From NCBI GenBank assembly GCA_021776475.1, contig JAJFFV010000005.1, positions 682,001 through 746,000 on the forward strand: a stretch of 64,000 bases of DNA, written 5' to 3'. Of this stretch, positions 1,649 through 18,460 are shown one piece after another. The position numbers were made by a program, and so were the translations under genes. Positions within the stretch are counted from its first letter, which is position 1. Every line of letters starts with the position of its first letter. The stretch comes from Parvularculaceae bacterium (GTDB taxonomy: Bacteria > Pseudomonadota > Alphaproteobacteria > Caulobacterales > Parvularculaceae). The notes under the pieces were generated by a model that made no database searches, was not told the origin of the DNA, and was given only the letters and a program-made list of their open reading frames with translations.

Positions 1649-2323
1649 TCAACCGCCCTTACCCGTCATGTATGCGTCACCCGCAAGCAGGCGCTGGGTA
1701 TCCCTTGGCACGCTTGACAGTAGATCGTTGATAAACCGATTGTGCTGAGCGAAGTTCAGCCGCGAACCGGTACCAGCTGTCGATACTCTAACCAGTGTAC
1801 TGTCCGCAGATTTTCCTAAGCCGGCCTGTATGTTGGCGAATTGTTGTCCCGCCTGCCCGTTGGCCAGTTTGTCACCCACACGAATCCAATAAGAAACGCT
1901 CTCGCGGCGTAGGCTGCTATCGGCAGCCATATGGGAAATCCGCAACCCGTTTGCGAGATTGGATTGATCATTGTTTCTGCTGACCGCATAGCCCTGCGCA
2001 CGATAGCAGACTTCCGGCTGATGCAGGCGCACGGCATCACCGCGCGCGCTGCCATAAGCGACAACCAATGTCAGGAATTGGCCGCTCTTGTGGACATATG
2101 TGCGATAAAGCACCGCCGTGCCAGGCTCTTCAATATCCTCTGACGGCCGCACGACGGATGTCAGTGGGCTGAGTGACCAGTCACCAATATTTTCTGGGAT
2201 CAGTGTAGACAATTCCGGCGCTTGCGGCGTACCCATATCAGTACTACGCAAAGCAGACACCGCCAGCAGGGCCGTAACGCTTGCGATCGCCATCATCACC
2301 ACTCGAATCACGGGTTGTGTCAT
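1649..2323 (-). CDS. epsI: Exosortase-associated protein EpsI
   Basis: A 224-residue EpsI/DUF3485 protein, the usual partner of exosortases in exopolysaccharide loci. Residues 7-26 form an N-terminal membrane anchor. The periplasmic part carries the family hallmark RLHQPEVCYRAQGY at 99-112 (the H-x-PE-x-C block). A longer reading frame exists upstream, but the ATG at 2323 overlaps the exosortase stop as ATGA and is followed at once by the hydrophobic anchor, so it is chosen as the start. In some families EpsI is fused to the exosortase; here the two are separate and translationally coupled. Its exact role in polymer export or sorting is not settled. Confidence 0.87.
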   Translation of the reverse strand: MTQPVIRVVMMAIASVTALLAVSALRSTDMGTPQAPELSTLIPENIGDWSLSPLTSVVRPSEDIEEPGTAVLYRTYVHKSGQFLTLVVAYGSARGDAVRLHQPEVCYRAQGYAVSRNNDQSNLANGLRISHMAADSSLRRESVSYWIRVGDKLANGQAGQQFANIQAGLGKSADSTLVRVSTAGTGSRLNFAQHNRFINDLLSSVPRDTQRLLAGDAYMTGKGG

Positions 2324-3240: not shown

Positions 3241-4152
3241 TCATCTTGTCATTACCGTACCAACCAACTGGGCACGGCATTCTGTCATCAAGGAAGTGAT
3301 TTTGCGGATATCCGGTGTGCGCGTTCTGTCACGGCGCGCAACCAAAAGAACTGACTTGGTCAGTGCCCACACGAGTTGAGCATCTGCAGTGTCAAGGCTG
3401 TCGCCGGTGTTGACGATCACAGAGTCGTAGTGATCCATCTGCTCCATAATAGTCGTGGCATATTTTTCACTGCACAACAACTCCTGCGGGTTAAACGACG
3501 GCCTACCCGCTGGTAAATATGTCAGATTGCGAATAAGGCCAGGCGCATAGGCATCTTTGACGTTACAGGTACCCCTGACAACATCTGTCAAACCCATCCG
3601 TGGTCGAAGACCCAGGAGTTGATTCATGTGTGACAAACGCAGGTTCGAGTCGACGAGAAGTACCTTCCGGCCCAACTGCGATACTGCGACGGCTAGGTTA
3701 GCTGCGACGAACGAGCAGGCCGTTTCTGCACCAACACCTGAAACACACAACAAGCGAAGGGCAGTTCCTTCGCTTTTTGTGACCAGACGCGTGCGGACGC
3801 GGCGAAACTGTTCTGCCTCTTCCGTATGGGGACTATGCAACGTGATGAGCGACGCGGGCACCTTTACTCTATGGCGATCATCGTGGAACAAACCCTGCTG
3901 GATGCTCAGCGCGGCGTTGATATCCTTCTTCGCGACCATACCGAGGGCGAGAGCCGCTACACCGAATTTTTTGCCGGTCCGGGCTGAGTAGGCCAAAATT
4001 TTCGGAACATCGTCAGGCGTTATACAGCCCATACGAATTAACGTGTCACCAAGCGTCTGGGAGCGCTCAGGCAAAATAGTTTTATCTGCTTGACTGCTGT
4101 CGTCAGATCCCGTTTGCGGCGTTTCCGTGGCTAGTGCTGCCTCAGAAGTCAT
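3241..4152 (-). CDS. epsG: EpsG/CpsD-like chain-length regulator ATPase with degenerate P-loop
   Basis: A 303-residue protein resembling EpsG/BY-kinases, the cytoplasmic partners of Wzz-type chain-length determinants. Residues 34-90 look like an MshEN/GspE N-terminal-like domain (LGDTLIRMGCITPDDV, then a second LGMV..KKDINAAL unit). The nucleotide-binding fold follows: EAEQFRRVRTRL at 113-123, a Walker A position reading SGVGAETACS (138-147), and Walker A' VLLVDSNLR (164-172). The P-loop lysine of GxGKST is absent; EpsG proteins often carry Arg there, but this one has neither. There is no C-terminal tyrosine cluster. It may be a scaffold or nucleotide sensor instead of an active kinase. Its ATG overlaps the stop of epsF (ATGA). 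Confidence 0.82.
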   Translation of the reverse strand: MTSEAALATETPQTGSDDSSQADKTILPERSQTLGDTLIRMGCITPDDVPKILAYSARTGKKFGVAALALGMVAKKDINAALSIQQGLFHDDRHRVKVPASLITLHSPHTEEAEQFRRVRTRLVTKSEGTALRLLCVSGVGAETACSFVAANLAVAVSQLGRKVLLVDSNLRLSHMNQLLGLRPRMGLTDVVRGTCNVKDAYAPGLIRNLTYLPAGRPSFNPQELLCSEKYATTIMEQMDHYDSVIVNTGDSLDTADAQLVWALTKSVLLVARRDRTRTPDIRKITSLMTECRAQLVGTVMTR

Positions 4153-5534
4153 GCGTAATACCTCCCCTTCACCATGCCGGGGACACGGATTTCCGCCAGC
4201 ACGTCCGCTTTCGATGCAAGTTGCAACCCTTCACGTGAACGAAGCCTTGCTTCGAGAAGCTCGACGACAACAGCCGCGCTCATTCCCATACAAAAGCCAA
4301 GCATTGCGCCAGCCAGAATGATCAGGATATCAATTGGCAGGAGCGGTTCTTGTGGCGGCACCGCTCGAGAGAGAAGCAAAACATCAATTGTGTCAAACCG
4401 CGACTGCAGACCTTCCTGCAGCGTTCGCGCCGCAAGCAAATCGTAGGCTTGGCGATTTGTATCGAGATTTTTTTCCAGCGTATCAAAGCGCTGCCGCGTT
4501 TGTTGAAGATCTACAACGCGGCTCTTTTGCCCGGCAACTTCCTGTGAAAGTTTTTTAACCCGGCGCCCGGTATACTCAGCGCGCCCCTTAACTGTGCTGT
4601 AAATGATGTTCTGCTGGTTTTCGAGCTCGCTCAACGATTCCAGATAGTCTGGGTGATTCTCGCCGTAACGCTGACCGAGGCGCTCCAGTTGCGATGCGAT
4701 CGCGGCAAGTCGGGCCTGGGCGGTGCGGCCCGGTGTGTCGTAGGCCGGCAGTGGTATGGTGCCAAGTTTGTCTTTTGGTGTCTGCCGGACCTGATCAAAA
4801 AGAGATTGTGCTTCCGCGTGATCGGCCCGCGCCTCTGCCATTCGAGAGGTCAGTGAGGCGAGTTCCACTTCGGCAGATTCTGCCTGTTCAACACCGATCG
4901 TGACGATGCCACTTTGTTGCTGAAAGGCGGTCAGCTCTTCACGAGATTCCTGAACCTGTTGCTCGAGCGTGTCTGTTTCCTCAGAAAAATTCTCTGCGTT
5001 ACGCGCCGCCCGGCGTTGACGCTGTTCCAACACTGTAATCATATATGCATCAGCAAACGCGTTGGAAAACCGCGCCGCATTTGATGGGCTGTCACCGCGA
5101 TAGGTAATCGTCAGAGTGCTCTCGGCAACATTGGAGCGAACAACGAGGTCTTCAATCAATTGATCGGCCGTCCACAATCTTGAATCGTTACCAGGAACAA
5201 GTTCACCGCCGGTGATTTCGCGCCAGTTGCTCTCATATTGCGCTATCGAGATATACCCCTCTAGAGTGAGTATATCGACAACCTTGAGGGCAACCGTCCG
5301 GCTGGTGACGATAGCAGCTTGTTGTCCAAGAAATTCGGAAACGCGCAGGCGCGGCTCGACCAGGCCAGTAAGAAGGTTTTCCTGTATCGAGTCTACTTGG
5401 ACTTTGGCTGACGCCTCATAGGTCTGCGGCACAACGCGCGCGACAAGCAGCGCGGCAATCGTCGCGACCATAATAGCCCAGAAGATAATGATCGCACGGG
5501 CGCGTAACACGCTAAACAGGGCTAATAGGCTCAT
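4149..5534 (-). CDS. epsF: Wzz/GumC-family polysaccharide chain-length determinant (EpsF-like)
   Basis: A 461-residue inner-membrane polysaccharide co-polymerase. It has a first membrane helix at about 13-33, a Wzz-type strand region just after it (TYEASAKVQVDSIQENL), a long periplasmic coiled coil rich in Glu, Gln and Arg (about 165-370), a proline-rich PPQEPLLP segment before the second membrane helix (about 404-428), and a short cytoplasmic tail. No kinase domain is fused; the ATPase partner is the next gene, overlapping by 4 nt. Its ATG overlaps the EpsD-like stop codon in the same way. The EpsD-EpsF-EpsG-exosortase-EpsI order matches known exosortase EPS clusters, except that the outer-membrane exporter EpsE is not between EpsD and EpsF. 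Confidence 0.9.
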   Translation of the reverse strand: MSLLALFSVLRARAIIIFWAIMVATIAALLVARVVPQTYEASAKVQVDSIQENLLTGLVEPRLRVSEFLGQQAAIVTSRTVALKVVDILTLEGYISIAQYESNWREITGGELVPGNDSRLWTADQLIEDLVVRSNVAESTLTITYRGDSPSNAARFSNAFADAYMITVLEQRQRRAARNAENFSEETDTLEQQVQESREELTAFQQQSGIVTIGVEQAESAEVELASLTSRMAEARADHAEAQSLFDQVRQTPKDKLGTIPLPAYDTPGRTAQARLAAIASQLERLGQRYGENHPDYLESLSELENQQNIIYSTVKGRAEYTGRRVKKLSQEVAGQKSRVVDLQQTRQRFDTLEKNLDTNRQAYDLLAARTLQEGLQSRFDTIDVLLLSRAVPPQEPLLPIDILIILAGAMLGFCMGMSAAVVVELLEARLRSREGLQLASKADVLAEIRVPGMVKGRYYA

Positions 5535-6427
5535 TTTGCCCCCTCAACCATCTCAACTGTCGGTTTAACGCTTTCCCGATAGATTGCGACAGCTGTATTT
5601 TTTCGCAATTGTTCAATTTTACGACGCACACGGTTTTGCGACTCTTGTTGCTTCAGGAGTGCACGTGCCAGGGGTATGCTGCTGGTGAGTGAAAGACCGG
5701 CACTTTCGATCTTTGTGATTTTCATAATAGAAGTACGGACATCGCCCTGCAGCACAATGTTGTCGGTCGTGCTGTATTCAGAAAGCTGAAGGCGAATGGC
5801 TTCAGGAAATCCCGCCGCCGGCCGAACCGCTTCCGACAGGGTGTAGGTTATGCCCTTTACCTCAAGTGCTGCTCTCAAAACTGAGAAATCCGGTTTTTCA
5901 TCAAAAAGCGGCGTCAGCACTTCAAGGTCAAGATCCTTACTGTCAATCTCGATCACACTGAACGTGTAGTTCTTGGCCTTGGAGAACAAAGTCGGATTGT
6001 CCAGAATATATTCTTCAACTTCAATCTGTGACGGCTCAGGTGGCTGTGCAATAATACCCAGATAGAGTTCTGTCAGCGCCTGTTCGCGCGCAGCTTCCAT
6101 CCGCCATAAGGCTTCCGGGCGTTTGTGAATTTTGGCCGCTTCTGCTTCTTTCACAATCAAGATACGGTCCCGCAAGCTTTCAAACGCGCGTCGTTCTGCG
6201 GACGCTTCCAACGGATCAAGCCCGAGTTTCTGCATCTCGATACGTACCTCACTGATGGTAACTTCACGCCCCCCGACATTCGCAACAACTTGTGTTTCGC
6301 CAGATGTAACCTTTTTATCTTTGGCCGTTGCGGCAGGAACGCAGAAAAAACCAAGCGCCAGCACAACAACGAGGCCACTTTTCACGGCGATCCTGTTCCG
6401 TCTTTGCGCACCACGCTTACTCATCAC
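5531..6427 (-). CDS. epsD: EpsD-family peptidyl-prolyl isomerase-like protein
   Basis: A 298-residue secreted SurA/EpsD-like protein. A basic N-terminus (KRGAQRRNR) is followed by a signal sequence at about 16-36 ending near PAATAK. The next part, VANVGGREVTISEVRIEM (about 47-64) and the helical segment to about 120, is the SurA_N-like chaperone fold found in EpsD. The C-terminal half (about 120-260) occupies the place of the parvulin domain but lacks clear parvulin motifs, so isomerase activity is doubtful. The role inferred from the family is periplasmic help in assembling the export machinery. It lies directly after the GT2 gene and overlaps epsF by 4 nt. Confidence 0.8.
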   Translation of the reverse strand: MMSKRGAQRRNRIAVKSGLVVVLALGFFCVPAATAKDKKVTSGETQVVANVGGREVTISEVRIEMQKLGLDPLEASAERRAFESLRDRILIVKEAEAAKIHKRPEALWRMEAAREQALTELYLGIIAQPPEPSQIEVEEYILDNPTLFSKAKNYTFSVIEIDSKDLDLEVLTPLFDEKPDFSVLRAALEVKGITYTLSEAVRPAAGFPEAIRLQLSEYSTTDNIVLQGDVRTSIMKITKIESAGLSLTSSIPLARALLKQQESQNRVRRKIEQLRKNTAVAIYRESVKPTVEMVEGAK

Positions 6428-7372
6428 TCATACCTCCTGCATCGCAGAATCGTTTTTCGCGCCGATCCCGCGATTGTGCTCACCGATGTCGTCTTCATCG
6501 TTCAGCACCATCTGCAACATTCTGACGCATCGCCAGGTCCGGATACGAAATAGAATCTTCAACGCTGCCAGTTTATCCCGCTTGTCTGCCAATGCAGGAC
6601 TGATCGCTACAAACACAATATGCGGCACAGCAGATAGTGCCGTACCTAAAGCCATCAAACACCAGATCATCATACCCGACAGACGCCGGTCATATCTGTT
6701 CTGGTGTCCCCTCCATCGCTCGGCAATCAGGCGCGACCATTTTTGTGTCAAGGCTGCCCAATCCCTTCGCGCGGGATGACTAACGATGCATTTACCATAA
6801 AAGGATAAACGAAACCCTAGCACCAGCGCTCTGTGACACCAGTCGACATCCTCCGATAAACCATTTGTAAAGCATCCAGTTTCACGAACCACATCACGGC
6901 GTGTAATGATGTTTGCTGTGACCGAGAAGTTCTTCTGCTCTACATATTGCCTTTGACGAAAACCGAACACTTTTTCGAACGCCTCGACGCTGGTAAGACT
7001 TTTTTCATCATCTGCCGTAACCTGGACTGCCCCGCCGACAATGTCTGTATCGTCGATCGCGAGAGCTTCGATGCCCACAGCCAACCAGTTTCTATCTGGC
7101 ATGCAATCGCTGTCAGTGAACGCGATCACCTCGCCTGTTGCTACCTGAAGGGCTGCATTTCGAGCGCAGGCGGCACCGCGCTCTTCCACCTGAAGGAACG
7201 TGACACCTGGGTATCGGTTGACAATCTCTTCAATACCACCCGGCGTGTTGTTATCCGCGACAATGACTTGTTGGGGCCCGATATAGGATTGCAAGAGGAG
7301 ACCATCGAGGCATTTTCGCAAAAGATCTTGCTGATCGTAATGAGGGATAATTACGCTGACCGAGAGCATCAT
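6428..7372 (-). CDS. GT2-family glycosyltransferase
   Basis: A 314-residue GT-A glycosyltransferase. It opens with VSVIIPHYDQ (5-14), has VADNNTPGG (38-46), the conserved RGAACARNAAL region (65-75), and the metal-binding DSD motif in FTDSDCMPD (85-93). Hydrophobic residues around 220-250 probably dock it to the membrane. Two ATG codons are adjacent (7372 and 7369); the first gives an ATGA overlap with the upstream GT4 gene and is used here. It most likely adds one sugar of the exopolysaccharide repeat; donor and linkage cannot be read from sequence. Confidence 0.88.
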   Translation of the reverse strand: MMLSVSVIIPHYDQQDLLRKCLDGLLLQSYIGPQQVIVADNNTPGGIEEIVNRYPGVTFLQVEERGAACARNAALQVATGEVIAFTDSDCMPDRNWLAVGIEALAIDDTDIVGGAVQVTADDEKSLTSVEAFEKVFGFRQRQYVEQKNFSVTANIITRRDVVRETGCFTNGLSEDVDWCHRALVLGFRLSFYGKCIVSHPARRDWAALTQKWSRLIAERWRGHQNRYDRRLSGMMIWCLMALGTALSAVPHIVFVAISPALADKRDKLAALKILFRIRTWRCVRMLQMVLNDEDDIGEHNRGIGAKNDSAMQEV

Positions 7373-8646
7373 ACACTTCTCAGGACTTTGTTACAGGCAT
7401 CAATATAGGCGGATTTTTGCTGCGCCCAGGAGAACGATGAAGCAAGTCGGGCATGACCAAGGTTGCCCATTGCTGTCGCCTGTTCCTCATCGTGTAAAAG
7501 TGTACAGATTTTCGCCGCCAGGCTCGCGGGGTCGTTATCGTCTGCGATAAGTGCTGCCTCGCCTGCAATCCGGCGACACTCAGCGAGATCAAACATTACG
7601 ATGGGCAGTTTGTAAGCCATATACTCCATAACTTTGTTCATCGCGAGTTGATCATTAAAGTCGTTCTTGGGATCGGATCCGATGCCAATATCTGCCGTAC
7701 AAAAAGCTTCGGCGAACGCATGGCCGGAAAGAAAACCGGGGAAACTGACGGCGTCGCTTATTCCCAGGCGCTCAGCGTCGTCGATCAGATTGCTACGCTC
7801 TGGTCCGTCACCGGCGATAAGCAAATGGGCATCGGTTTCTTTTAGATCACCCCGGAGGATTTGCATTGCCTGCAACAACAAATCGACACCATCCTGTGAG
7901 CCCATCATACCCACCCACAAGAGGAGTTTTGACGCACCCTTTTTGAGCGCCGGGTTTGCCGATACAAAGGGCATGCGCGCGAGATCCGGTGCCGAATAGA
8001 CGACGGATGTATCCTCTTTTTTCTTATTTCCGCGCCCTATCGCCACGTTCTGGAACGCCGCATTGGTGGAAATCACATGATCAGCAACATGAAAAGTTTT
8101 CCGCTCCGCCCATTGCGCGAAGGCAAGCAACGGCCCCGTTGGTTTGCCGGTTTTCTCTACCAACAATTCGGGCGTCAGGTCATGATGATCAAAGATGATT
8201 TTTGCCTTGCCGAATACTTTTGCAAGTAGCGCCGGCATGAACAAGAAATCGGGGGGGTTGCATATTTGCACAACATCAATGCTGCCAAAGCCAACTCGAA
8301 CCAGAGCCGCAATCTCCATCAACAGAGCCGTGCCATATTCGAGAGCATAACCAGCCAGGCCATTCGCCTCAAACGGCAGCGAATGGCGATATATCTCAAC
8401 TCCCTCTAGGTACTCATGGGACTTGGTGTACCTGCCTGCCTTTGGACAAATTACAGAAACACGCCATCCTGCCTGAACCAATGCTGTCGCCTCTTGCCAA
8501 ACCCGTCGGTCTGCTGGCACCGGCATGTTCTCTACAATGATCACCATGTGAGGTGGACGCTGAACATCTGTCAATGCGGGCGATGCGATTGTCTCGGTTG
8601 ATACCGCCGATCCTCGTTCAGGATGAATAGTGCGTGTTGTTTTCAT
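7369..8646 (-). CDS. GT4-family glycosyltransferase (WbuB-like)
   Basis: A 425-residue GT-B retaining glycosyltransferase and the first gene of the visible EPS operon. The N-terminal Rossmann domain starts at about residue 33 (MVIIVENMPVPADRRVWQEA), has VVQICNPPDFL near 125-135 and FDHHDLTPEL near 151. The C-terminal nucleotide-sugar domain has LLWVGMMG (about 235-242), LIAGDGPER, and the GT4 E-x7-E region around MNKVMEYMAYKLPIVMF. The first 30 residues are not part of the fold, and a start at the internal Met34 is possible, although the operon-distal ATG at 8646 is kept. The 125 bp upstream should hold the operon promoter, but no clear consensus was identified. Confidence 0.88.
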   Translation of the reverse strand: MKTTRTIHPERGSAVSTETIASPALTDVQRPPHMVIIVENMPVPADRRVWQEATALVQAGWRVSVICPKAGRYTKSHEYLEGVEIYRHSLPFEANGLAGYALEYGTALLMEIAALVRVGFGSIDVVQICNPPDFLFMPALLAKVFGKAKIIFDHHDLTPELLVEKTGKPTGPLLAFAQWAERKTFHVADHVISTNAAFQNVAIGRGNKKKEDTSVVYSAPDLARMPFVSANPALKKGASKLLLWVGMMGSQDGVDLLLQAMQILRGDLKETDAHLLIAGDGPERSNLIDDAERLGISDAVSFPGFLSGHAFAEAFCTADIGIGSDPKNDFNDQLAMNKVMEYMAYKLPIVMFDLAECRRIAGEAALIADDNDPASLAAKICTLLHDEEQATAMGNLGHARLASSFSWAQQKSAYIDACNKVLRSV

Positions 8647-8771
8647 TATTGAACACCCGAGACTATCAATCAGGTTTAAAGAATTATGGTTTCCAGATCA
8701 TGAATTCATGAGGAGGTCGGACAATATATTCTGTTTACATATTATTAATGAGCATTGCCAAAACGCAAATA

Positions 8772-9017
8772 TCAGGCCTGTTCGTCATCTTCGAACGCCT
8801 GGCTCGCAAGATGCACAAGAAGGAACCCCACCGCAACCAGAATAATTGTGCCGGCGGATGCCGATCCTTCGTTGCCGGTCCAGTTGCCAAGCGCGCAAGC
8901 TGCAATCGAAACCAGATATGGCGTCAAAGGCGGATCTTCATATTGCAACCGATACAGGAACAATCCCGCGGCAGCAACAAACAGACCGGTCGCACAAAGA
9001 TCAAAAAACGTCGCCAT
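8772..9017 (-). CDS. XrtV sorting-system accessory-like small membrane protein
   Basis: An 81-residue protein with two predicted membrane helices (about 4-22 and 53-72), separated by a loop with CALGNWTGNEG. The start MATFFDLCATGLFVAAAGLFL, the short charged LQYEDPPLT segment and the ALGNW-x-GN motif match my recollection of the XrtV sorting-system accessory family; this is a memory-based match, not a search. A GAGGTG ribosome binding site lies 7 nt before the ATG. It is on the same strand as the exosortase operon and just upstream of it, which supports the assignment. Its function in exosortase systems is unknown. Confidence 0.6.
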   Translation of the reverse strand: MATFFDLCATGLFVAAAGLFLYRLQYEDPPLTPYLVSIAACALGNWTGNEGSASAGTIILVAVGFLLVHLASQAFEDDEQA

Positions 9018-9113
9018 AAAAGCACCTCAGATGCGAGCACTTTCGCATATTTGCGTTAATGCGATATTGCCAGCAGCGGTATTTATGCGCTGTAGGTTAA
9101 GGATTTATTTACC

Positions 9114-9902
9114 CTAAATGAGCCGGTACTTTGATGTTGCAACACGGAACTGCAGCCAGTCGCCAGATCTGACAACAGAGCCTTCGGCTTCAACAGCCTC
9201 CGCGACAAACGGCAGAATATCTGTGCTCACTGCATTGCCGTTTTCATCGGTGAGTAACATCACCACTTCGCGTCCATCTTTCGTATGAGCCCAAAATGAT
9301 GGTGGAATGCCACCGCGGATGCACAAAGAAGCGCACGCCTTATGCGTTTTACCGCGCCCGGGACGCATCACACCAAAAAAGCATTTGGTATCCATAATCA
9401 TTCCCTGAAGGGAAATACTCTCGATAACCACCTCAGATACGACATCCGGGATCGTGACATTTGTGGGGGCGGGTGATAACCATGCTGCATCATCGAATGG
9501 CACTTCCAACATATGTCGTCCGCGGCGCTCGATCAGCACGCCAGTGCCTGTATGGACGCCGCCTGCCGCCATCGCGAGTTCAAGGGATGAAGTGCACTTA
9601 CCCATTGCAACGACCAAGGTCGTTTTATAATTACCGTTTGGATCAACACTTCTGATCATAGGATACGGGTCACGAACAAGCTGGCCGGTTACCGTATGAG
9701 TTGAGCTTGTTTGCCAACTGCCGGCACCGGGATCTGCAAGCTCATTCGCAACAAGCCAACCCAAACCACCTGAAAAAGCAGCTATTGTCGGTACAGCCCC
9801 TAACAAAAAACGCCGGTCCACGGCAGGCGGTTTTGCCCAGCCAATGAAGAAATCATCTTCGCGATGCGGCCGTGGAATAAGAATACTTCCAGCGCGCTTC
9901 AT
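9114..9902 (-). CDS. Tat-like exported protein with Cys/His cluster, function unknown
   Basis: A 262-residue protein with an unusual 30-residue cytoplasmic extension, then DRRFLLGAV at 29-37 (resembling the Tat RRxFL motif) and a hydrophobic segment to about residue 52. The exported part seems to have two related beta-rich units, one starting TVTGQLVRDPYPMI (70-83) and one starting SLQGMIMDTKCFFGVM (164-179). The second carries Cys174, His187, Cys190 and Cys194 in CFFGVMRPGRGKTHKACASLC; Cys103 is in the first. This spacing suggests a metal, heme or disulfide site. It overlaps the upstream Rieske/ferric-reductase gene by 4 nt (ATGA), so the two probably work together in membrane electron transfer. 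I know no named function for it. Confidence 0.75.
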   Translation of the reverse strand: MKRAGSILIPRPHREDDFFIGWAKPPAVDRRFLLGAVPTIAAFSGGLGWLVANELADPGAGSWQTSSTHTVTGQLVRDPYPMIRSVDPNGNYKTTLVVAMGKCTSSLELAMAAGGVHTGTGVLIERRGRHMLEVPFDDAAWLSPAPTNVTIPDVVSEVVIESISLQGMIMDTKCFFGVMRPGRGKTHKACASLCIRGGIPPSFWAHTKDGREVVMLLTDENGNAVSTDILPFVAEAVEAEGSVVRSGDWLQFRVATSKYRLI

Positions 9903-10957
9903 GATCTCTGCTCCGCAGTTTGTCCGATAACAAGAGGGTCAACATAAGTCCCTGGCGCATTGGCATCAGGATTGAGAAAAACCATCCCATTCATCATTTT
10001 CAGATTGTATGTTGCAATTTTTTCGGTGAACGGCGGCGGTGATATGCCGTCTTCCATCCGGTATTGCCATCCATGCCAGGGACAGGTGACACAACCGTCA
10101 ATAATGCGGCCCTCTCCCAACGGACCATTTTGATGGCGGCAGACATTTGTGACCGCAGAGATTTTTTTTCCATCCCGAAAGACAGCGACGCGTTCACCGC
10201 CCGGTAACGGCACAATAACGGCACGCTTGTCAGGAATGTCATTTGGTGCAGCAACCGAAACCCAGCTCTTGGCTTCCATCTTGTTGAGGAGAGCATCGTT
10301 CTTTGCTTCTCTCAGACCCGTTATGAGGTGGAGCCCTGAAACCAAGCCAAAGGCGGCGATAACCAGAACCGGATATACGGGCGATTTTTCGGTTACCAGT
10401 GCACCTGCCGCAATATGAATAACCAGTAGTCCGTATGCCACATATACAAGCATATGCAACGCCTTCCAGACAGGGGCCGAAAGGTTGTTGAGCCAGAAAT
10501 CATGGCTTGTCGCCGCCATCAGCAACAAAATGATGAATGCAGCAAGGCCCAAAAGCTCAAACGGAAATCCAGGAAACGTGCCACCAGACTGATTGCTGAG
10601 GAATAAAGACACTAGGGGATTGAGAGGACCAAAGCCATGATACCAGGTAAGCGCCAGTCCAAAATGTGCCAAAGCCACTAGAAATGTGAAAACACCAAAA
10701 TGGCGTCGATTGTAGAGCATGGGCTTAAAGCGGTCTGAAATCCGTGCCAAGGGGCCAATCAACAAAATAAATGTCAGCAACAGGAAGGCGCATGTGCCCA
10801 GCGCGCGGATCATCAACACTATCGGATCTGAAGTTGCAAAAGCCATCAGGCCAACAGCCATGAAGATCGCAATGTAAATGACGGCAAAAGTCACGATAGC
10901 GATGTCGTATTGAACTTTGCCTTTGTTCCACTGGATCGCCTGGTACTGATGACCCAT
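9899..10957 (-). CDS. Ferric-reductase-like membrane domain fused to a Rieske 2Fe-2S domain
   Basis: A 352-residue fusion. Residues 20-215 hold about six membrane helices with histidines placed as in the heme-binding ferric reductase/YedZ family (His86, His98, His168, His181 among candidates). Residues 230-340 are a soluble Rieske domain with the full motif Cys273-x-His275 (VCRHQNGPLG) and Cys292-x2-His295 (CPWHGWQ). The arrangement suggests a b-type cytochrome passing electrons to or from a 2Fe-2S centre. There is no FAD/NAD(P)H domain of the kind found in Fre or NADPH oxidases. Its ATG overlaps the stop of a 50-aa membrane gene (TAATG) and its stop overlaps the Tat-like gene. The substrate is unknown. 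Confidence 0.88.
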   Translation of the reverse strand: MGHQYQAIQWNKGKVQYDIAIVTFAVIYIAIFMAVGLMAFATSDPIVLMIRALGTCAFLLLTFILLIGPLARISDRFKPMLYNRRHFGVFTFLVALAHFGLALTWYHGFGPLNPLVSLFLSNQSGGTFPGFPFELLGLAAFIILLLMAATSHDFWLNNLSAPVWKALHMLVYVAYGLLVIHIAAGALVTEKSPVYPVLVIAAFGLVSGLHLITGLREAKNDALLNKMEAKSWVSVAAPNDIPDKRAVIVPLPGGERVAVFRDGKKISAVTNVCRHQNGPLGEGRIIDGCVTCPWHGWQYRMEDGISPPPFTEKIATYNLKMMNGMVFLNPDANAPGTYVDPLVIGQTAEQRS

Positions 10958-11109
10958 TATTCCGCCTCCCCCTGAATCAGATCAAGGGCTGCGTCCGATA
11001 CCAGGGGATCAGGTTGCTTGAGATATAAAGACAGAAAAAACATAAAAACTGTCACCGGCACAAGGGCTGACCAAAGCAGCAGGTGAGCCCGGCGGTGCGT
11101 GCGCTTCAT
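10957..11109 (-). CDS. 50-aa single-span membrane protein
   Basis: A very short gene (50 residues): a basic N-terminus MKRTHRRAHLLLWSAL, one membrane helix at about 10-30 and an acidic tail ending LIQGEAE. It is supported by context: its ATG overlaps the stop of the upstream 80-aa-class gene (ATGA at 11109-11106) and its TAA overlaps the ATG of the Rieske/ferric-reductase gene by one base. The positive-inside pattern puts the N-terminus in the cytoplasm. It may be a small subunit of the same redox complex. Automated callers are likely to miss it because of its size. Confidence 0.7.
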   Translation of the reverse strand: MKRTHRRAHLLLWSALVPVTVFMFFLSLYLKQPDPLVSDAALDLIQGEAE

Positions 11110-11339
11110 GAGGCATCTCCTGCGTGAATGTTCTGATTAATCTGACGCCCTGAAAGCCAGCGCCCAAGAATGATGGGCCACAGCAGGATGAGGCCGGGAA
11201 GAACAATCAATCGAAACGGCCACTTTGCACCGTTCGCGGCATGATCAGCACGAGAGATCCCCAACAACAGAAAAAGTACGGCAACAACCAGGCCAACGCC
11301 AAGATAGCCTGCAGCGATAAGTAATCCAGTTTCAACCAC
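11106..11339 (-). CDS. Small two-helix membrane protein, first gene of the Rieske operon
   Basis: About 77 residues with two predicted membrane helices (roughly 3-27 and 42-62) joined by the polar loop SRADHAANGAKWP, and a short tail. The frame has GTG codons at 11348 and 11339; the GGAG at about 8 nt before the second favours 11339. It overlaps the 50-aa gene by 4 nt. Together with the two following genes it forms a compact four-gene operon, so it is probably a subunit or assembly factor of the ferric-reductase/Rieske protein. No family is recognised. Confidence 0.7.
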   Translation of the reverse strand: MVETGLLIAAGYLGVGLVVAVLFLLLGISRADHAANGAKWPFRLIVLPGLILLWPIILGRWLSGRQINQNIHAGDAS

Positions 11340-11439
11340 GCAGTACACTCCCTCGCCTTGATTATTCTCAAGCGAGCTTAGACCAGATTATCCGGAAATC
11401 AAAAATCACAAATTGTAGAAACTCTCCCAAGCCCCGTGT

Positions 11440-11970
11440 CTATTTGCATTCAGTGAAAATGGTCCCGACCACAGGCTTGCATTCTTTTTCTCGGTTGGCT
11501 GTACCTGTCTTTTTGGCCGCTTCCTTTGGCTCGACCACCGGCAATCTGAGCAGTCTCACCTGACTGTCGAGTTGATTGAGCGGTCCTGCGAAACTGCTGA
11601 ACCTGCTGTTGTTGGTCTGCCATTCGCTCTGCTCCCTGCCACATCTTGTCAGATCTTTTTTGAACGCGGCGGCACAATTAGCCAACGCCCTGCAGGCGTT
11701 TTCGGTTTTTGCATAACTCACATCGATTTGCGCCTTCACACTCTTAAGATCCTGGAGCAACACCATCGCGGGCGCCGGGTCGACGTTCCTTGTCGACATT
11801 TTGTCGGCCAGACGGTTTTTCAAGGTTGTGTTTTTGGCACTGTAGGTTCTGCGCAAGTCTTCGACATTCCGCACATCGCACGCAGGCGGCTCTTCTTTTT
11901 TTTGCCAGCCATTGTGGCCGCAGGCCGTAAGGACAATGAGTAAAATCGCCGCTGGCAAAAAAATCTTCAT
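11440..11970 (-). CDS. Putative lipoprotein, Cys-rich, function unknown
   Basis: A 176-residue protein starting MKIFLPAAILLIVLTACGHN, a lipoprotein signal with lipobox LTAC (Cys17). An in-frame ATG five codons upstream (11985) is also possible, but the hydrophobic signal begins right at the chosen Met. The mature protein is helical and charged, with five further cysteines, three of them in CRALANCAAAFKKDLTRC, suggesting disulfides, and a C-terminal KECKP...FTECK. No known domain is recognised. It precedes nothing obvious on its strand and follows the Sel1/peptidoglycan-binding gene (12025-13935) after about 50 bp, so both could be one transcript with an envelope role. Confidence 0.7.
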   Translation of the reverse strand: MKIFLPAAILLIVLTACGHNGWQKKEEPPACDVRNVEDLRRTYSAKNTTLKNRLADKMSTRNVDPAPAMVLLQDLKSVKAQIDVSYAKTENACRALANCAAAFKKDLTRCGREQSEWQTNNSRFSSFAGPLNQLDSQVRLLRLPVVEPKEAAKKTGTANREKECKPVVGTIFTECK

Positions 11971-12024
11971 TTCTCTTTTCCTCATCTCTTAGACCAATAT
12001 CTTAAGACAGGTGATTGCGTTCCT

Positions 12025-13935
12025 CTAATTCGGATCGCATCCTTCCCCTACATTTTTGAGACGCTTGTTATAGAAATCAACTTGTTCGAGCTGTTCGTTT
12101 TTAATTCGTTGCCAGCGCTCCTGCGAAGACAACGGGCCATACTTCTTTACCAGCTCTTTCGCGAACGGGTGGTTGGCCTCTACAGCCTCCTGAAGATAGG
12201 CGTCAGCTCGCTCAGTACTCTCAACAACATCGCAAAGACGATAGCTGCTCAAAACCGTGCCGCTGCCGTAGATGATTGCCAGATTATATAAGGCATCTAC
12301 ATCGCCGCTGTCGGCTGCGTCTTTTAGCCACAATAGTCCCGTGTCCGTGTTCTGAACAACACCAAGTCCAGTAACATACATGATACCAAGGACGTTTTTA
12401 GCGTCCCTGTCGCGCGCGTTATCGGCGGCGCTACAAATCAGATACACTGTTTCCAGGGGTGACAGATCGCCGGTTTCCTGGAATCCCAGTTCGCGCTGAA
12501 AATCCGAAATCGCGCGCCGGGTCATTGGCCCATATTTGCTATCAATATTCCCCTGATAGTGCCCAAGTGCCTTGAGAGCCTTCTGCCGGATTGGGAGATC
12601 AATAATGTCACCCCCATCAGGATTTTGGCGGGCATCGCGCGAAATACGGGCGAGACTCTGTGCAGAGTATTCGCAAGTCAGGTTCAAGGCACCGAGGCGC
12701 TTGGAAGCCAGGACCGCTGATTCAGCACCGCATTTGCGGCCTACTTTGATAGCTTCAGAAAAAAAGGCACGCGCCTGAGTTGTCTGGCCAATTGCCATCT
12801 CCGCCTCGCCCCGATTAAACCAGTACCTCGATTCATCTGCACAGGTAAGGAACTGTTTCCTGTCGACGCAGTTGGGTGGTGAATTGTTAGTGATGCAATT
12901 TGGTGGAATACCACCGCTGTCATCGACCGCGGCACTTCCCGGATTGTCACGGTAAGCGCGTGAGGCGTCATCGATACCCAGAACTAATCCACCGACACGA
13001 TCCTCCAGCGGTTCGTTTGGCCTTGCAGCACCGGCGCAGAACGTCGCCCTGACTTGCTTTGAGTCGGCCACTATCTTCTGCAACTTCTCCTCTGCCTCAC
13101 GGCTGAGTTGATCGCGGTATGGGGGAGAAAACCCGTCTCTTTTTGCCATGTAGGTCAGCCAGTCATATGCCTCACCGTATCCGCACAATGCGGCCATTTG
13201 AAACTGCACAAACGCTTCCGAATCACTTCTCGCGGGTAGATAATATCCGTATAAAACATAATACTGATCAGCGACTGCGATTGGACCAGATTTCTCATAG
13301 GATTCATCGAGATAAAGTTGTCCAAGCCGCAGAAACCCGCGGCCACCATTTCTCGTGTGGTACTTTACAAAAGTTTCCTTGAGCCTTCCAACCTGTTGGG
13401 TTGTCAGGCTCAAACCCTTAAGCAGGTCATTTGCTTTTTCGTATCCGCCCAGGCCAGCCATAAGATAATGGAAGGCTGCTTCGATCTTTTCATCCCGTTG
13501 ATATTGCTCAAAGAGACCCAGCAAGAGGTTGTCGGACTGTGATGCGGACAACAAAAGCGCCTGGGCTTTCTTCCGGCCATAGTATTTTTTATTTGTTTGC
13601 GCCAGCCACTCGGTCAGGGAAGCCTGCTGCAGTTCGACCATGCCGTAGCTTCGTTGACTCTGTTCCGCGCACGCGATCTTACACGCATCATCTGATAAAT
13701 GGTCGGTTTTTAGTTGGGTTAACGATAATGTCGCCCATATGGTCATAGAGGACAAAAGCAGGACGCCTAACAAAAGAGAAATAACCTGTAGTTTGTCGAG
13801 CTTAATATGCCACGGCGGCGCTGCCGACCCCTTAGTGGCTACAATAATATTATTCTGATCAAACGTAGTCCGCAGATGTTTCGGACTTCGTCTTAAATAT
13901 ATATTCTCATTACTGTCCGACATAACCCGCGACAC
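12025..13935 (-). CDS. Membrane-anchored Sel1-repeat protein with peptidoglycan-binding domain
   Basis: A 636-residue protein: about 48 cytoplasmic residues, one membrane helix (about 49-71), then a helical periplasmic region with Sel1/TPR-like repeats. A PG_binding_1-type domain lies at about 450-500 (IRQKALKALGHYQGNIDSKY... MTRRAISDFQRELGF), followed by two more Sel1 repeats (NVLGIMYVTGLGVVQNTDTG and ALYNLAIIYGSGTV). Sel1 proteins act as protein-protein scaffolds, and the added peptidoglycan-binding fold points to the cell wall. The start is GTG 13935 with a purine-rich upstream stretch; ATG 13923 is an alternative. The partner is unknown. Confidence 0.75.
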   Translation of the reverse strand: MSRVMSDSNENIYLRRSPKHLRTTFDQNNIIVATKGSAAPPWHIKLDKLQVISLLLGVLLLSSMTIWATLSLTQLKTDHLSDDACKIACAEQSQRSYGMVELQQASLTEWLAQTNKKYYGRKKAQALLLSASQSDNLLLGLFEQYQRDEKIEAAFHYLMAGLGGYEKANDLLKGLSLTTQQVGRLKETFVKYHTRNGGRGFLRLGQLYLDESYEKSGPIAVADQYYVLYGYYLPARSDSEAFVQFQMAALCGYGEAYDWLTYMAKRDGFSPPYRDQLSREAEEKLQKIVADSKQVRATFCAGAARPNEPLEDRVGGLVLGIDDASRAYRDNPGSAAVDDSGGIPPNCITNNSPPNCVDRKQFLTCADESRYWFNRGEAEMAIGQTTQARAFFSEAIKVGRKCGAESAVLASKRLGALNLTCEYSAQSLARISRDARQNPDGGDIIDLPIRQKALKALGHYQGNIDSKYGPMTRRAISDFQRELGFQETGDLSPLETVYLICSAADNARDRDAKNVLGIMYVTGLGVVQNTDTGLLWLKDAADSGDVDALYNLAIIYGSGTVLSSYRLCDVVESTERADAYLQEAVEANHPFAKELVKKYGPLSSQERWQRIKNEQLEQVDFYNKRLKNVGEGCDPN

Positions 13936-14034: not shown

Positions 14035-17000
14035 TCAGGGACTTACAGGTTCTGGCGGGGTGAGGCCCGGTGCATCACCTGTAAAGCCAGACGTATCATC
14101 TAGATTCTCGGCAAACCGCGGCTGTTTTTTGCCGGTGACGATGTAAATGAAGAAGCGGCGGATATCGGCCCCGATCCCATACACCGCAGGGACGAAAAAC
14201 AGTGTCACGAACAAAGCGAACAACACACCGAAAGCCAGTCCAATGCCTACTGGAATCAAGAACTTAGCCTGAATAGACCGCTCCATCATCAAGGGCAGAA
14301 GACCGACAAAAGTCGTCAGTGACGTCAGCAGGATCGGCCGGAAGCGCTTGGTGCCAGCTTCGAGTAACGCCCGCCCGCCGCCAAGCCCCTGCGCTCGTAA
14401 CCGGTGCACATAGTCGACCAGCACAAGATTGTCGTTCACCGCGACCCCTGCAGCTGCCATGAAGCCGAGGAAAGAGAACAACGACATCGCGTGGCCCATA
14501 ACGAGATGACCGACGATCGCCCCGGTAAAACAGAACGGGATTGCCGCAAACAGGATGAGTAGAGGTTCGAAATAGGACTTAAACGCAACCGCCACGAGGA
14601 AATAAGCGATCCCGATCGCTATCAAAGACAGGATCATCATCTCGGACAAGAATTCTGCTTGGCCTTGCGCCCTGCCGATGTTGCCTCGGCGAATGGTCGG
14701 GTGATTTTTATCAAAATCGTCGAAGTAGTTTTCGGACAAATCCTTACGGATCTCTTCAATACGATCGGAAACTACTTCGGCGCTAACAATGACAGCACGC
14801 TGGCGCTCTCGCCGCAGAATCTGACTGACGCCTATATCAAAAGAAATATCAGCAACCGAATACAGAGGTAGTTCACGGCCATCATTTGTCCGGACGCGCA
14901 TGTTGCGCAAATAATCAAGCGACTGTCTGTCAGCCTGCGGATAACGGACAAAAACCCGCACGTCGGCGCCATCGCGCGGCAGACGCTGAACTTCTTCGCC
15001 GTAGAATCCCTGACGCACCTGCTGTGCGACTGAACCGGTAGTAATGCCCAGTGATTCTGCGCCCGGTTTTAAGGCAAACTGTACCTCCTGCGAGGAGCTT
15101 TGTGTGTCGTTCACAACATTGTAGACGCCTTCATAGGATCGAAGCTTCTCCATTAAATCTTCTGCTGCAAAGGTCAGATCTTCAAGGCTTGTGGAATTGA
15201 GAACGTACTGAATAGGCGGATCATTATCGGTGTCTTTGTAGACAACAGATATCGTTTCAGCGTCCGGTACTTCGCCGATCAATTCGCGAAGCCGCTCCGC
15301 TGTTTCCTGAGCACCAAGCGTTCGTTCTTCAGGCGGAACAAGTTGCACGATCGCAAGCACCTGGTTGTCGCGTGATCTGGTGTACCAGTTTTCGATCAAT
15401 TCACCTTGTTGCGATGAAATCTCTTGTTCCAGCTGCCTTTCGGCAATCTGTATCTGCTCAAGGACTTCGAGAGATCTTGCGTAAGGTGTGCCCTGGGGCA
15501 GCTCTACAGTAATGATTACCTGATCAGACTCAGGCTCCGGCATGAATGAGAACTTGACGAGCCCGTTAGACACCAGTCCGATAGACATAATCATTGCACC
15601 AACAAAAACGGCAGCCGTCAAGTACCGGCGTTTCAGCGCGCCTGCCATGAGGGGGCGATAAATTTTGTGACCGAACCGCACGATACTGTCGGCAAGTTTC
15701 TTCTGAAATTTCAAAATGCCCTTATCCGCTTTAGCCGGTTTCAAATGCGAAAGGTGTGACGGGAGGATCAATAAAGATTCTACGAGAGAAAAAGTTAGCG
15801 CGAGGATTACAACCAGCGAGATCGCCCGGGTAAATTGTGCTGTGCCACCTGACACCATCATCCAGGGAGCGAAAAAAATCATTGTCGTAAGCACGGCGAA
15901 GATAACGGGTTTGATCACCATCTTGGTGCCATTCACGGCTGCTGTGAGCCCTGATTCACCATCTTCTGTTTTGCTGTGTATCGCCTCCCCCACGATGATC
16001 GCATCGTCAACAATCACACCGATGACGAGCAGAAATGCGAAAGTCGATAACATATTAAACGAAACGTCGAACAAAGGCAGAAGCGCGACGCCCCCGGCGA
16101 ATGCTGTCGCAATGCCGACAGATACCCATAAGGCGATCATGGGTCTCAAGAACAGCATCAGTGTTATAAGGACCAATACAAGTCCACTAAAAAAACTGCT
16201 GCTAATCGTTGTGATCCGGCTTGAATAGGTCTCCGATTGATCGTCCCATATGGTTAGGCTCATGCCCTCAGGAAGATTCTCACGAGCCTCCTCTACATAT
16301 TCTGTCACATGTTTCGAAATATTGACGATGTCCATCGTCGGGCCGCTCATCACCTGAACGAGGATTGTTCGCTCACCATTGATCGTTGCCAACAGATTAA
16401 CTTCCTCAAACCCGTCTTTGACGTTTGCAATGTCGCCAACCTTGATGACCGCGCCGTTAGCCAACTGACGGATCACGATGTCTTCAAAGTCAGACTGTGT
16501 GTCGGCGAGCTGGCGCGTGCGTAACTGGACGTCACCCAGTTCAGTGCGAACATTGCCTGAAGAGAGGTTCACGGAAGAACCACGTACTGCATCGGCAACC
16601 TCACTGAAGGTCAGGTTGTATCGACGCAAAGCTTCTTCGGAAACTTCAATAGAGACCTCTTCGTTACGAACACCGAACAAATCTACTGACGGCACATTCG
16701 GTAGCAACGCGATGTCACGCCGAATTTTTTCCGCCATACGCTTTAGCTCACGCTCGTCCACATCTCCCGAAACAGCAACACGCATGACTTCATTTTGAGC
16801 GGCAAAGAGCCTAAGGTTTGGTTGTTCCGCTGCTGCTGGAAACGTGTTGATGGAATCCACTTCACGCTTTATATCTTGGAGGAAAGCAGCTTTATCGAGA
16901 TCCATTTTGCCAATGACAAAAACTCTACCGCCACCTTCTGCGGCGACCGACCAAAGCTGATCGACACCCTCAACCCGGCTAATTGCCTCTTCCAGCCTGA

Positions 17001-17196
17001 CAACAATTTGTTCTTCAACATCCTGCGGCGATGCACCGAGCCAGGCAACCGAGACCTGTGCGCCTGGAAACTCCACATAGGGCCAGGTTTCTCGTTCGAT
17101 CGAAGAAAGACTGATAACACCGCCGATCATGATGATAATCATGAGCAGGTTTGCGGCTACCCTGTTACTTGCCCACCAGCTAACAATACCGTTCAT
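14035..17196 (-). CDS. RND efflux transporter, AcrB/HAE family
   Basis: A 1053-residue inner-membrane pump of normal RND length. It begins MNGIVSWWASNRVAANLLM, has the typical first periplasmic strand (VEFPGAQVSVAWLGASPQDVEEQI) and helices 2-6 from about residue 335 with the proton-relay motif in VIGVIVDDAIIVGE (about 400). The second half repeats this, with helix 10 reading AAAGVAVNDNLVLVDYVHR. The tail after about 1020 is acidic and proline-rich. It would export hydrophobic compounds together with the adaptor encoded just upstream and an outer-membrane channel that is not encoded here. The adaptor stop lies 10 nt upstream, so the two genes are one operon. Confidence 0.93.
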   Translation of the reverse strand: MNGIVSWWASNRVAANLLMIIIMIGGVISLSSIERETWPYVEFPGAQVSVAWLGASPQDVEEQIVVRLEEAISRVEGVDQLWSVAAEGGGRVFVIGKMDLDKAAFLQDIKREVDSINTFPAAAEQPNLRLFAAQNEVMRVAVSGDVDERELKRMAEKIRRDIALLPNVPSVDLFGVRNEEVSIEVSEEALRRYNLTFSEVADAVRGSSVNLSSGNVRTELGDVQLRTRQLADTQSDFEDIVIRQLANGAVIKVGDIANVKDGFEEVNLLATINGERTILVQVMSGPTMDIVNISKHVTEYVEEARENLPEGMSLTIWDDQSETYSSRITTISSSFFSGLVLVLITLMLFLRPMIALWVSVGIATAFAGGVALLPLFDVSFNMLSTFAFLLVIGVIVDDAIIVGEAIHSKTEDGESGLTAAVNGTKMVIKPVIFAVLTTMIFFAPWMMVSGGTAQFTRAISLVVILALTFSLVESLLILPSHLSHLKPAKADKGILKFQKKLADSIVRFGHKIYRPLMAGALKRRYLTAAVFVGAMIMSIGLVSNGLVKFSFMPEPESDQVIITVELPQGTPYARSLEVLEQIQIAERQLEQEISSQQGELIENWYTRSRDNQVLAIVQLVPPEERTLGAQETAERLRELIGEVPDAETISVVYKDTDNDPPIQYVLNSTSLEDLTFAAEDLMEKLRSYEGVYNVVNDTQSSSQEVQFALKPGAESLGITTGSVAQQVRQGFYGEEVQRLPRDGADVRVFVRYPQADRQSLDYLRNMRVRTNDGRELPLYSVADISFDIGVSQILRRERQRAVIVSAEVVSDRIEEIRKDLSENYFDDFDKNHPTIRRGNIGRAQGQAEFLSEMMILSLIAIGIAYFLVAVAFKSYFEPLLILFAAIPFCFTGAIVGHLVMGHAMSLFSFLGFMAAAGVAVNDNLVLVDYVHRLRAQGLGGGRALLEAGTKRFRPILLTSLTTFVGLLPLMMERSIQAKFLIPVGIGLAFGVLFALFVTLFFVPAVYGIGADIRRFFIYIVTGKKQPRFAENLDDTSGFTGDAPGLTPPEPVSP

Positions 17197-17206
17197 TTCG
17201 CCCTCC

Positions 17207-18460
17207 CTAATTTACAGAGGCTTGGGAAGGTGCGGCACCATCATCAGAAGCCGTTCGCTCGACAACCTCGATTTTCATGCCATCCGCCGCGCCGCGTATG
17301 GGCGACGTTATGACCTGTTCGCCAGGACTTAAGCCCGCTGTCAAAACTACCCGGTCACGATCTGATGATGCAACGGTCACCGTTCTGATCTCGATTTCCT
17401 TGTCCGCGGTGGCGACATAAACCTCATCTTCACCACGCAGAGCGCTTCGCGGCACGACAACACCAGAGTCAAGCGCGCGGCCGACGATCGCTGCGGTCAC
17501 AAACAGGCCTGAGGCAAGAGGCGTCCCATCATCCGCCCCGGCGCCATATGGATCAGCAACTTCAGCGTAAGCGAATAGAGCTCTTGTAGAAGGATCGTAG
17601 CCGCTATCTGTACGAACAATACGACCTTTCCATTCGTGTGGTCGTCCCGCGACAGTCGCGGTCAAGACAACTTCTGGCCCGGGTCGTTCAGCAGATTCGG
17701 CAAAACCCACTTCAAGACCCAACTGACCTAACTCGTTGTCAGTCAACGGCAGCGGTATTTCCATGGTTTGTACGGAGAAAATTTTTCCAAGATTGGTCCC
17801 GGGTGCAACATACTGGCCAACACCCGCTTCTTGTTCCCGTACACGCCCGTCAAACGGCGCTTTGAGCGTTGCCCGCTGGAACTGAAGTTCTGCTTCGCCG
17901 AGCGCTGCTTCCGCAGAGTTGATCATCGCACGTGCTTCTGCAACCTGCGGTTCGCGCAGTGCCAAGGAACTGGTTTCATTAAGGCCAAGTTCATCAGCCT
18001 CTTTTCGAGCCACTTCAGCTTCGGCTTCTTCACTTTGTAACCGGGTGCGGGACTGAGCGACATTCGCGCGCGCTTGCACGACTCGCAGTCGATACTCTTC
18101 CGGATCAATACGCAACAGCACATCACCCTTCCGGAACGCACCACCTTCGACAAACGAAGGCGAGACATAGACAATTTTGCCGGACACCTGAGGCACCAAA
18201 CTGATCTCTGTGCGCGATTTAACTTCCCCCTGAGTTTGGACTGAAAGACGGACGTTTTCTGACGAGGCCTCTGCCACCAAAACAGGTGCGGCCTTTACCG
18301 TCTCTTCCTTCTCGTCAGGTTTGGGTTTGAGGGCTCCCATGGCAAATGTCAGGCCGATGGCTCCGATCAGAACCAATGCGGGCAAACCGCCGACCAAAAT
18401 TCGACGCACTAACAGGCCAATATCTCGCGGCTTTCTCGCAAGCGTAGAACGGGTCTCCAT
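17207..18460 (-). CDS. RND periplasmic adaptor (HlyD/MFP family)
   Basis: About 417 residues: a short basic N-terminus, a membrane anchor (about 22-44), a barrel-sandwich half (LVPQVSGKIVYVSPSFVEGG), an alpha-helical hairpin of about 80 residues (RANVAQSRTRLQSEEAEAEV...), the second lipoyl half (LKAPFDGRVREQEAGVGQYV) and beta-barrel and membrane-proximal domains. It links the RND pump to an outer-membrane channel. Several starts are in frame (GTG 18532, ATG 18475, ATG 18460); 18460 is chosen because GGAG lies 9 nt upstream, while the ATG at 18475 has its purine box too close. The assignment to the family is secure, the exact start is not. Confidence 0.9.
   Translation of the reverse strand: METRSTLARKPRDIGLLVRRILVGGLPALVLIGAIGLTFAMGALKPKPDEKEETVKAAPVLVAEASSENVRLSVQTQGEVKSRTEISLVPQVSGKIVYVSPSFVEGGAFRKGDVLLRIDPEEYRLRVVQARANVAQSRTRLQSEEAEAEVARKEADELGLNETSSLALREPQVAEARAMINSAEAALGEAELQFQRATLKAPFDGRVREQEAGVGQYVAPGTNLGKIFSVQTMEIPLPLTDNELGQLGLEVGFAESAERPGPEVVLTATVAGRPHEWKGRIVRTDSGYDPSTRALFAYAEVADPYGAGADDGTPLASGLFVTAAIVGRALDSGVVVPRSALRGEDEVYVATADKEIEIRTVTVASSDRDRVVLTAGLSPGEQVITSPIRGAADGMKIEVVERTASDDGAAPSQASVN

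Follow-up and report, generated by a model that had tools for sequence, protein, structure and literature searches.

The haem wires built on ferric reductase domains (FRD) that are known so far take flavin or NADPH inputs or, in the case of MsrQ, have a periplasmic molybdoenzyme as partner. The STEAP proteins are described as ferric and cupric reductases (PMC3591440), the MsrPQ system combines an FRD protein with a periplasmic partner (PMC5449189), and the NOX enzymes provide further context (PMC5676040). The first of them, a 2013 survey, also lists the Rieske domain among the architectures of FRD proteins. Here we describe a protein with this architecture and the genes around it, in a stretch of 64,000 nucleotides from a Parvularculaceae bacterium (contig JAJFFV010000005.1, positions 682,001 to 746,000; "the window"). 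The protein, C, is encoded in a set of four genes, A-B-C-D, that is widely conserved and apparently unstudied: we found no description of the operon in the literature that we searched, with most subscription papers beyond the reach of the search. In this case, such a wire has a Rieske input, two tiny subunits, and a putative periplasmic protein of no described family, and the set stays together across distant bacteria. We favor, with moderate confidence, the view that A, B, C, and D form a membrane complex that carries electrons out of the cytoplasm toward the periplasmic side, with a Rieske input, a haem core in C, and D as the periplasmic partner.

The four genes are as follows.
Gene A: 11106-11339, minus strand; 77 amino acids (aa) from the GTG at 11339, although the longest open reading frame (ORF) begins at 11348; two helices.
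Gene B: 10957-11109, minus strand; 50 aa with a single helix (by hydropathy).
Gene C: 9899-10957, minus strand; 352 aa; FRD membrane domain and C-terminal Rieske [2Fe-2S] domain.
Gene D: 9114-9902, minus strand; 262 aa; N-terminal anchor and two OB-like domains.

An earlier note on this DNA, made from the letters alone, had described four overlapping genes at 9114-11339. All four ORFs are present, and the overlaps at the A/B, B/C, and C/D junctions are 4, 1, and 4 bases. By hydropathy, A has two helices, B one, C six, and D one, in agreement with the note's 77-aa two-helix protein and 50-aa one-helix protein. The note had also described C as an FRD membrane domain joined to a Rieske domain, with neither FAD nor NADPH modules. 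Both domains indeed score above their Pfam cut-offs (Ferric_reduct at residues 53-178, 49.7 bits against 28; Rieske at 231-317, 58.3 bits against 20.3), and C has no FAD or NAD domain. In contrast, searches of A, B, and D against Pfam and NCBIfam (E up to 1) gave no match. A promoter scan gave two promoter-like sites (3.4 expected) and nine terminator-like sites (4.9 expected), which was not informative.

A profile search with D found 159 relatives in our genome collection. The best 80 of these, two loci on Rhizobium plasmids, and the window make up a set of 83 loci, in which genes were called as longest ORFs. In a scan with hidden Markov models, 73 of the 83 loci have the order A-B-C-D, so the arrangement is not chance. 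The remaining ten have D only (4), C-D (3), B-C-D (1), A-C-D (1), or A-B-D (1). The first three kinds, eight loci in all, sit at contig ends, and the other two were threshold misses: a tblastn search recovered the C of L115 (7901-8962), and a divergent B is readable ahead of C in L097. The hosts include several alphaproteobacterial groups, as well as contigs of metagenome-assembled genomes (MAGs) labelled as beta- or gammaproteobacteria or as Planctomycetota (mostly Phycisphaerales). The 80 include many MAG contigs from close relatives, as well as several genomes that are also in a set of 61 related genomes used below, so these counts are not independent. MAG labels may also carry binning errors: L067 is labelled Nitrosomonas, yet its neighbors are common with Marinicaulis loci. 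(Phylum and class names of the sampled genomes were inferred from named relatives.)

We also took an even sample of 398 genomes of the phylum: seven have C (E <= 1e-40), and it is these seven that have full-length D. In a sample of the class, C is found in 18 of 385 genomes (the window's own genome is counted in both). The fusion is therefore uncommon, as the earlier note had supposed, but it is not new, given the survey's list of architectures. In the class sample, A is next to C in 18/18 cases, D in 16 (not in L195 or L197), and B in 15 (not in L162, L196, or L200). The survey of gene neighborhoods that the earlier note had proposed thus finds the small genes conserved beside the fusion. They behave as subunits, as the note had guessed: they accompany C in nearly every locus that is not cut by a contig end, and A and B are tied together by their occurrence as one ORF in 8 loci (L089, L124, L128, L129, L158, L163, L198, and L201).

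We then examined the residues of C and D across 105 loci. Seven of these lacked a C, and six lacked a D, of sufficient length, which left 98 C and 99 D sequences. In C, the Rieske ligands (C273, H275, C292, and H295) are invariant in 98/98, as are R84, R85, H86, H98, H152, H168, and H181 in the membrane part; H210 is kept in 95/98. The Rieske and haem-type ligands are thus not missing in orthologs, which the earlier note would have counted against its proposal. The AlphaFold2 (AF2) model of C (pLDDT 89.2) has six membrane helices followed by a Rieske domain. The top solved folds for the membrane part are STEAP2, STEAP4, and STEAP1 (Z 16.9-16.2), with STEAP2 the best (Z 16.9, 4.0 Å over 207 residues); csNOX5 also matches (Z 15.8, 3.7 Å over 187 residues). 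The domain score above the cut-off and the six helices place C in the FRD superfamily (PF01794). The Rieske domain resembles the Rieske ferredoxin of a dioxygenase (CarAc; Z 15.6, 1.8 Å over 104 residues), and by its fold and its C-x-H ... C-x2-H ligands, it is of the ferredoxin type. Rieske domains of the bc1 type have an extra disulfide Cys pair next to the ligands. The ligand loops of C (CRHQNG and CPWHGW) lack this pair, so we rejected the bc1 type.

The membrane profile of C had no match among PDB sequences at E up to 10, so we mapped its residues onto NOX and STEAP by their spacing and by the fold match. By spacing, R84, H98, H168, and H181 (R84-x13-H98) fit the "Arg plus three His" pattern that is described for YedZ and STEAP1; the authors of that description read the pattern as a sign that the surface-proximal haem is probably the only one bound (PMC3591440). 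The outer pair, H98 and H181 in transmembrane helices (TM) 3 and 5, is present in all 98 sequences, and these are the predicted haem ligands. H86, H152, and H210 lie beyond the pattern and could complete an inner cofactor site. The loop after TM2 has 4 Lys/Arg and the long TM3-TM4 loop has none, which favors an N-in/C-in topology. Because of this distribution of charges and the six helices, a cytoplasmic location for the Rieske domain is favored. C was placed in neither the MsrQ nor the NOX family. For MsrQ, it scores 50.5 bits, against an NCBIfam equivalog cut-off of 130, and no molybdoenzyme MsrP is encoded beside it, among the nine scanned proteins at 6428-13935 or the two genes for resistance-nodulation-division (RND) transport at 14035-18532. 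For NOX, R84 occupies the position of the first canonical His (by spacing), and there is no FAD or NAD domain.

In the AF2 model of D (pLDDT 89.5), an N-terminal helix (27-54) precedes two beta-rich OB-type domains. The fold matches of the two domains are OB-type (VIA, Z 7.6 for 65-149 and Z 6.8 for 155-262), and as these values are below 8, they may reflect only the common OB arrangement. Ten residues are invariant in 99/99: D171, K173, C174, G177, M179, P181, G184, H187, C190, and C194. Five of them, the Cys/Met/His/Cys/Cys set in the second domain (C174, M179, H187, C190, and C194), bear out the earlier note's description of D as a Cys/His-cluster protein. (C103 is kept in 58/99.) The same note's label "Tat-like" fared less well: the twin Arg that would direct export by twin-arginine translocation (Tat) is present in 70/99 and is lineage-specific. 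The window's D has it, so the Tat route is possible in that lineage, but the other 29, which include both Rhizobium loci and most Phycisphaerales, do not. Tat export is therefore not a defining trait, and "N-terminally anchored protein" is a better description of D. The sequence of D had nothing better than E 0.074 in PDB. Two matches of its profile to MalE1 there (E 0.03, first domain) were taken as chance, and for DUF5818 (PF19135) there were weak matches, with E <= 0.1 in 2 of 62 members and 0.046 as the best value.

In the phylum sample, the second domain of D also matches short ORFs of 141-194 aa, at 8 places (E 1e-7 to 6e-11), and five of these eight genomes have a full-length D as well. 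The short relatives (L150-L157) keep the Cys, the Met, the His, and the Cys-x3-Cys. In 8/8 loci they adjoin a second small Cys-containing protein and SCO1/SenC, whose identity was confirmed with Pfam in L150 and L156; a rhodanese-like protein is present in three. The two small proteins had no confident Pfam or NCBIfam match where they were scanned. Given the invariant residues and the linkage of the short relatives to SCO1/SenC, D probably has a metal site. We think it most likely that the second domain binds a redox metal; that the metal is copper is a guess.

The N-terminus of B is conserved, rich in Arg and His, and followed by Trp (MKRxHRRxHxxxW type). A clue to its role comes from the diverged C locus L029/L199, in which A and D were not found. 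The gene directly after C encodes a cytochrome c (PF00034), and residues 1-34 of this protein fit the B profile (E 1.2e-4). This fusion suggests an outside position for the C-terminal side of B and a role for B in docking a periplasmic partner. L128 has an ORF with two CxxCH motifs (6624-7457), which looks real, just upstream of the A-B ORF. The CxxCH in L069 was rejected as a cytochrome c, as it is a single motif inside a glutamate-synthase-like ORF. Other genes were seen upstream as well: L199 has one for a Ferritin_2-domain protein (8312-8890) ahead of its diverged C, and directly upstream of A, there is a protein with a SPASM (iron-sulfur) domain in L185 (5445-6524) and one that is similar by eye in L186 (5475-6569).

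What might donate electrons to the Rieske domain of C? Two kinds of enzyme with a Rieske domain of their own recur beside the cassette. One (~541 aa) combines Rieske with the FMN domain of glutamate synthase (Rieske-GltS-like), and the other (~670 aa) combines Rieske with a three-domain thiamine pyrophosphate (TPP) enzyme that is pyruvate-oxidase-like (Rieske-POX-like). The top model for the TPP part of the latter is pyruvate oxidase (PRK08611), at 403.9 bits, which is below its cut-off of 742. Two examples show the first architecture.
L062, 5871-7496: Rieske-GltS-like enzyme.
L158, 3314-4924: Rieske-GltS-like enzyme.

The GltS-like cluster is found in 33/83 loci and the POX-like cluster in 30/83, and the Rieske motif was verified in 28/83 for each. 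These are lower bounds, as 7.5 kb on both sides was available in 46/83 loci. (Five GltS-like ORFs of 327-524 aa, some of them clearly shortened, do not have the motif.) In L158, L162, L163, and L201, the genes form a co-directional run of Rieske-GltS, A(-B), C, D, and Rieske-POX; in L158, L162, and L163, there is also a small membrane-type ORF after D. A third combination, Rieske plus FMN_red, directly follows C in L195 (6257-7384) and L197 (3359-4474). A TPP enzyme that has no Rieske domain was also seen near the cassette in L031, L032, L191, and L192 (Rhizobium plasmids and two other genomes), beside a family III CoA-transferase and a TPR-type protein.

The association extends beyond neighboring genes. 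Among the 61 related genomes, 21 have C (E <= 1e-60); Rieske-POX is in 8 and Rieske-GltS is in 10, all within those 21. Fisher tests for co-occurrence with C give 7e-5 and 4e-6, respectively, with the caveat that these P values ignore shared ancestry. One further GltS match, in G040, which lacks C, has no Rieske part. Nor is the association just physical: G008, G010, G012, and G016 have one or more of the genes at a large distance from C or on a separate contig. The earlier note had left the electron donor open. Neighbors and co-occurrence now indicate Rieske-fused enzymes in part of the relatives, although the window's own genome has none of them.

We propose the following path for electrons. 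The Rieske domain of C, at the cytoplasmic face, would take single electrons from a cytoplasmic donor, which in part of the relatives would be a pyruvate-oxidase-like, glutamate-synthase-like, or FMN-reductase-like enzyme with its own Rieske domain. The electrons would cross the FRD helices through at least one b haem, the outer one at H98/H181, with a probable second, inner cofactor site formed by H168 together with H86, H152, and H210. Outside, they would reach the second OB-like domain of D or another periplasmic carrier. A and B would be small accessory subunits, with B assisting the docking of the periplasmic partner. We infer the outward direction from two things: pyruvate-oxidase-like donors would be expected to carry out oxidative chemistry, and L029/L199 has a cytochrome c partner. 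The donor in the window genome and the final acceptor are presumed.

Several observations weigh against this proposal. No Rieske-verified copy was seen in the available stretch of 55/83 loci, for each of the two enzymes, and both TPP-enzyme neighbors in Rhizobium are without the Rieske domain. Genome-wide, 13 of the 21 C-positive genomes have no Rieske-POX and 11 have no Rieske-GltS. A genome-wide Rieske scan of the window genome found neither of these nor any other Rieske-flavoenzyme. (Its six Rieske matches are C, three ring-hydroxylating oxygenases, one Rieske-only protein, and the bc1 Rieske protein, with no flavin domain by Pfam.) On the periplasmic side, D is not beside C in L195 or L197, and in L052, C is followed only by a 53-aa peptide that resembles D's N-terminal anchor, so D is not indispensable. 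The case for a metal in D comes from residue conservation and from SCO linkage in distant relatives, and a search of the 83 cassette loci and 22 more turned up no SCO gene. Finally, CxxCH ORFs lie within 3.5 kb of C in only 2/79 loci, so cytochrome c is not a usual neighbor.

A broader version of the proposal is that C is a "Rieske-to-Rieske socket": a general hub that takes different Rieske-tagged cytoplasmic enzymes into one haem wire ending at an outside OB-fold metal site. We offer this tentatively and would not bet on it. If true, electrons would have a modular way into periplasmic electron transfer, one that does without an NADPH module, and if Rieske-tagged enzymes do dock on C, tagging with a domain would be a simple way of wiring cytoplasmic oxidations to the periplasm.

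We considered other explanations. C might instead be a STEAP-like periplasmic metalloreductase that acts on Cu(II) or Fe(III), in which case D would bind copper and pass on Cu(I). The three STEAP folds at the top of the list for its membrane part and the reductase activities described for STEAPs are consistent with this, as are the SCO1/SenC genes beside every short D relative and a YHS-domain gene cluster near 8/83 cassettes (one member of the cluster was scanned). Yet the commonest neighbors of A-B-C-D are Rieske-fused enzymes, the cassette loci themselves have no SCO gene, and the cytochrome c partners in L029/L199 and L128 fit a relay better. We consider a metalloreductase unlikely.

Another explanation starts from the pyruvate-oxidase-like neighbors. 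The pyruvate oxidase of E. coli is a quinone-reducing enzyme, and the TPP neighbor scores highest against a pyruvate oxidase model. C could then be an anchor that feeds the electrons of Rieske-fused enzymes into the quinone pool, with A, B, and D being structural, and its further conserved His could form a quinone site. But the residues of D are fully invariant even though D is predicted to be outside, and an outward path is what the fusion to cytochrome c in L029/L199 indicates. We view a quinone-linked anchor as rather improbable.

The three invariant cysteines of D (C174, C190, and C194) might also form a redox disulfide that supplies reducing power to periplasmic proteins, comparable to MsrPQ repair, and an FRD protein with a periplasmic partner is the MsrPQ layout (PMC5449189). 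However, the equally invariant M179 and H187 suit a metal site better than a dithiol, and of the fold matches shown for D, all are of the OB type and none is thioredoxin-like, so we give this thiol route little credence. Lastly, that C is an ordinary bacterial FRD protein, with unrelated small genes kept nearby by chance, would agree with the FRD-Rieske architecture being already known, but it is already contradicted by a gene order that persists across deep divergence and by the A-B ORFs, and we regard it as most improbable.

Other genes flank the cassette in the window. The one downstream of D, at 8772-9017 on the minus strand, encodes an XrtV sorting accessory protein (NF045607, 69.5 bits against a cut-off of 35) and belongs to another system, and 1649-8646 holds glycosyltransferases and an exosortase (PF09721 at 2320-3240). 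Such polysaccharide-type genes adjoin the cassette in 4/83 loci (L053, L073, L081, and the window). Upstream of the cassette, 14035-18532 on the minus strand encodes the RND transporter (ACR_tran) and an HlyD-type adaptor; this pair is also upstream of the cassette in the closest relatives (L033-L035).

How does the cassette compare with known systems? The survey of FRD proteins has the same FRD-Rieske combination, and in the part of it that we draw on, the small subunits, D, and the partner enzymes are not described (PMC3591440). CarAc-type Rieske ferredoxins share the fold and the CxH...CxxH ligands of C, but in C the domain is fused to a membrane haem domain. NOX enzymes such as csNOX5 match C in the fold of the membrane domain; unlike them, C has no detected FAD or NADPH domain, and by spacing, an Arg replaces the first canonical His. 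STEAPs provide the best solved fold for the membrane part, but C has a Rieske domain in place of the NADPH domain and belongs to a bacterial four-gene module. MsrQ (YedZ) resembles C in being a six-helix FRD protein that has Arg for the first canonical His plus three other His (by spacing; PMC3591440) and in having a periplasmic partner. C differs from MsrQ in its Rieske domain and perhaps in its three further conserved His. Also, its partner D is an anchored OB-like protein rather than a recognised molybdoenzyme, and the cassette has two extra small subunits. The short SCO1/SenC-linked proteins, for which we found no family name, share C, M, H, C, and C with the second domain of D, but each of them is a separate ORF (141-194 aa) that has one such domain and lies in another operon. 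For them and for the D family, the proposed relay is a first functional lead. Although C falls short of the cut-off for MsrQ, our best reading, by analogy, is that the relay works like MsrQ or STEAP.

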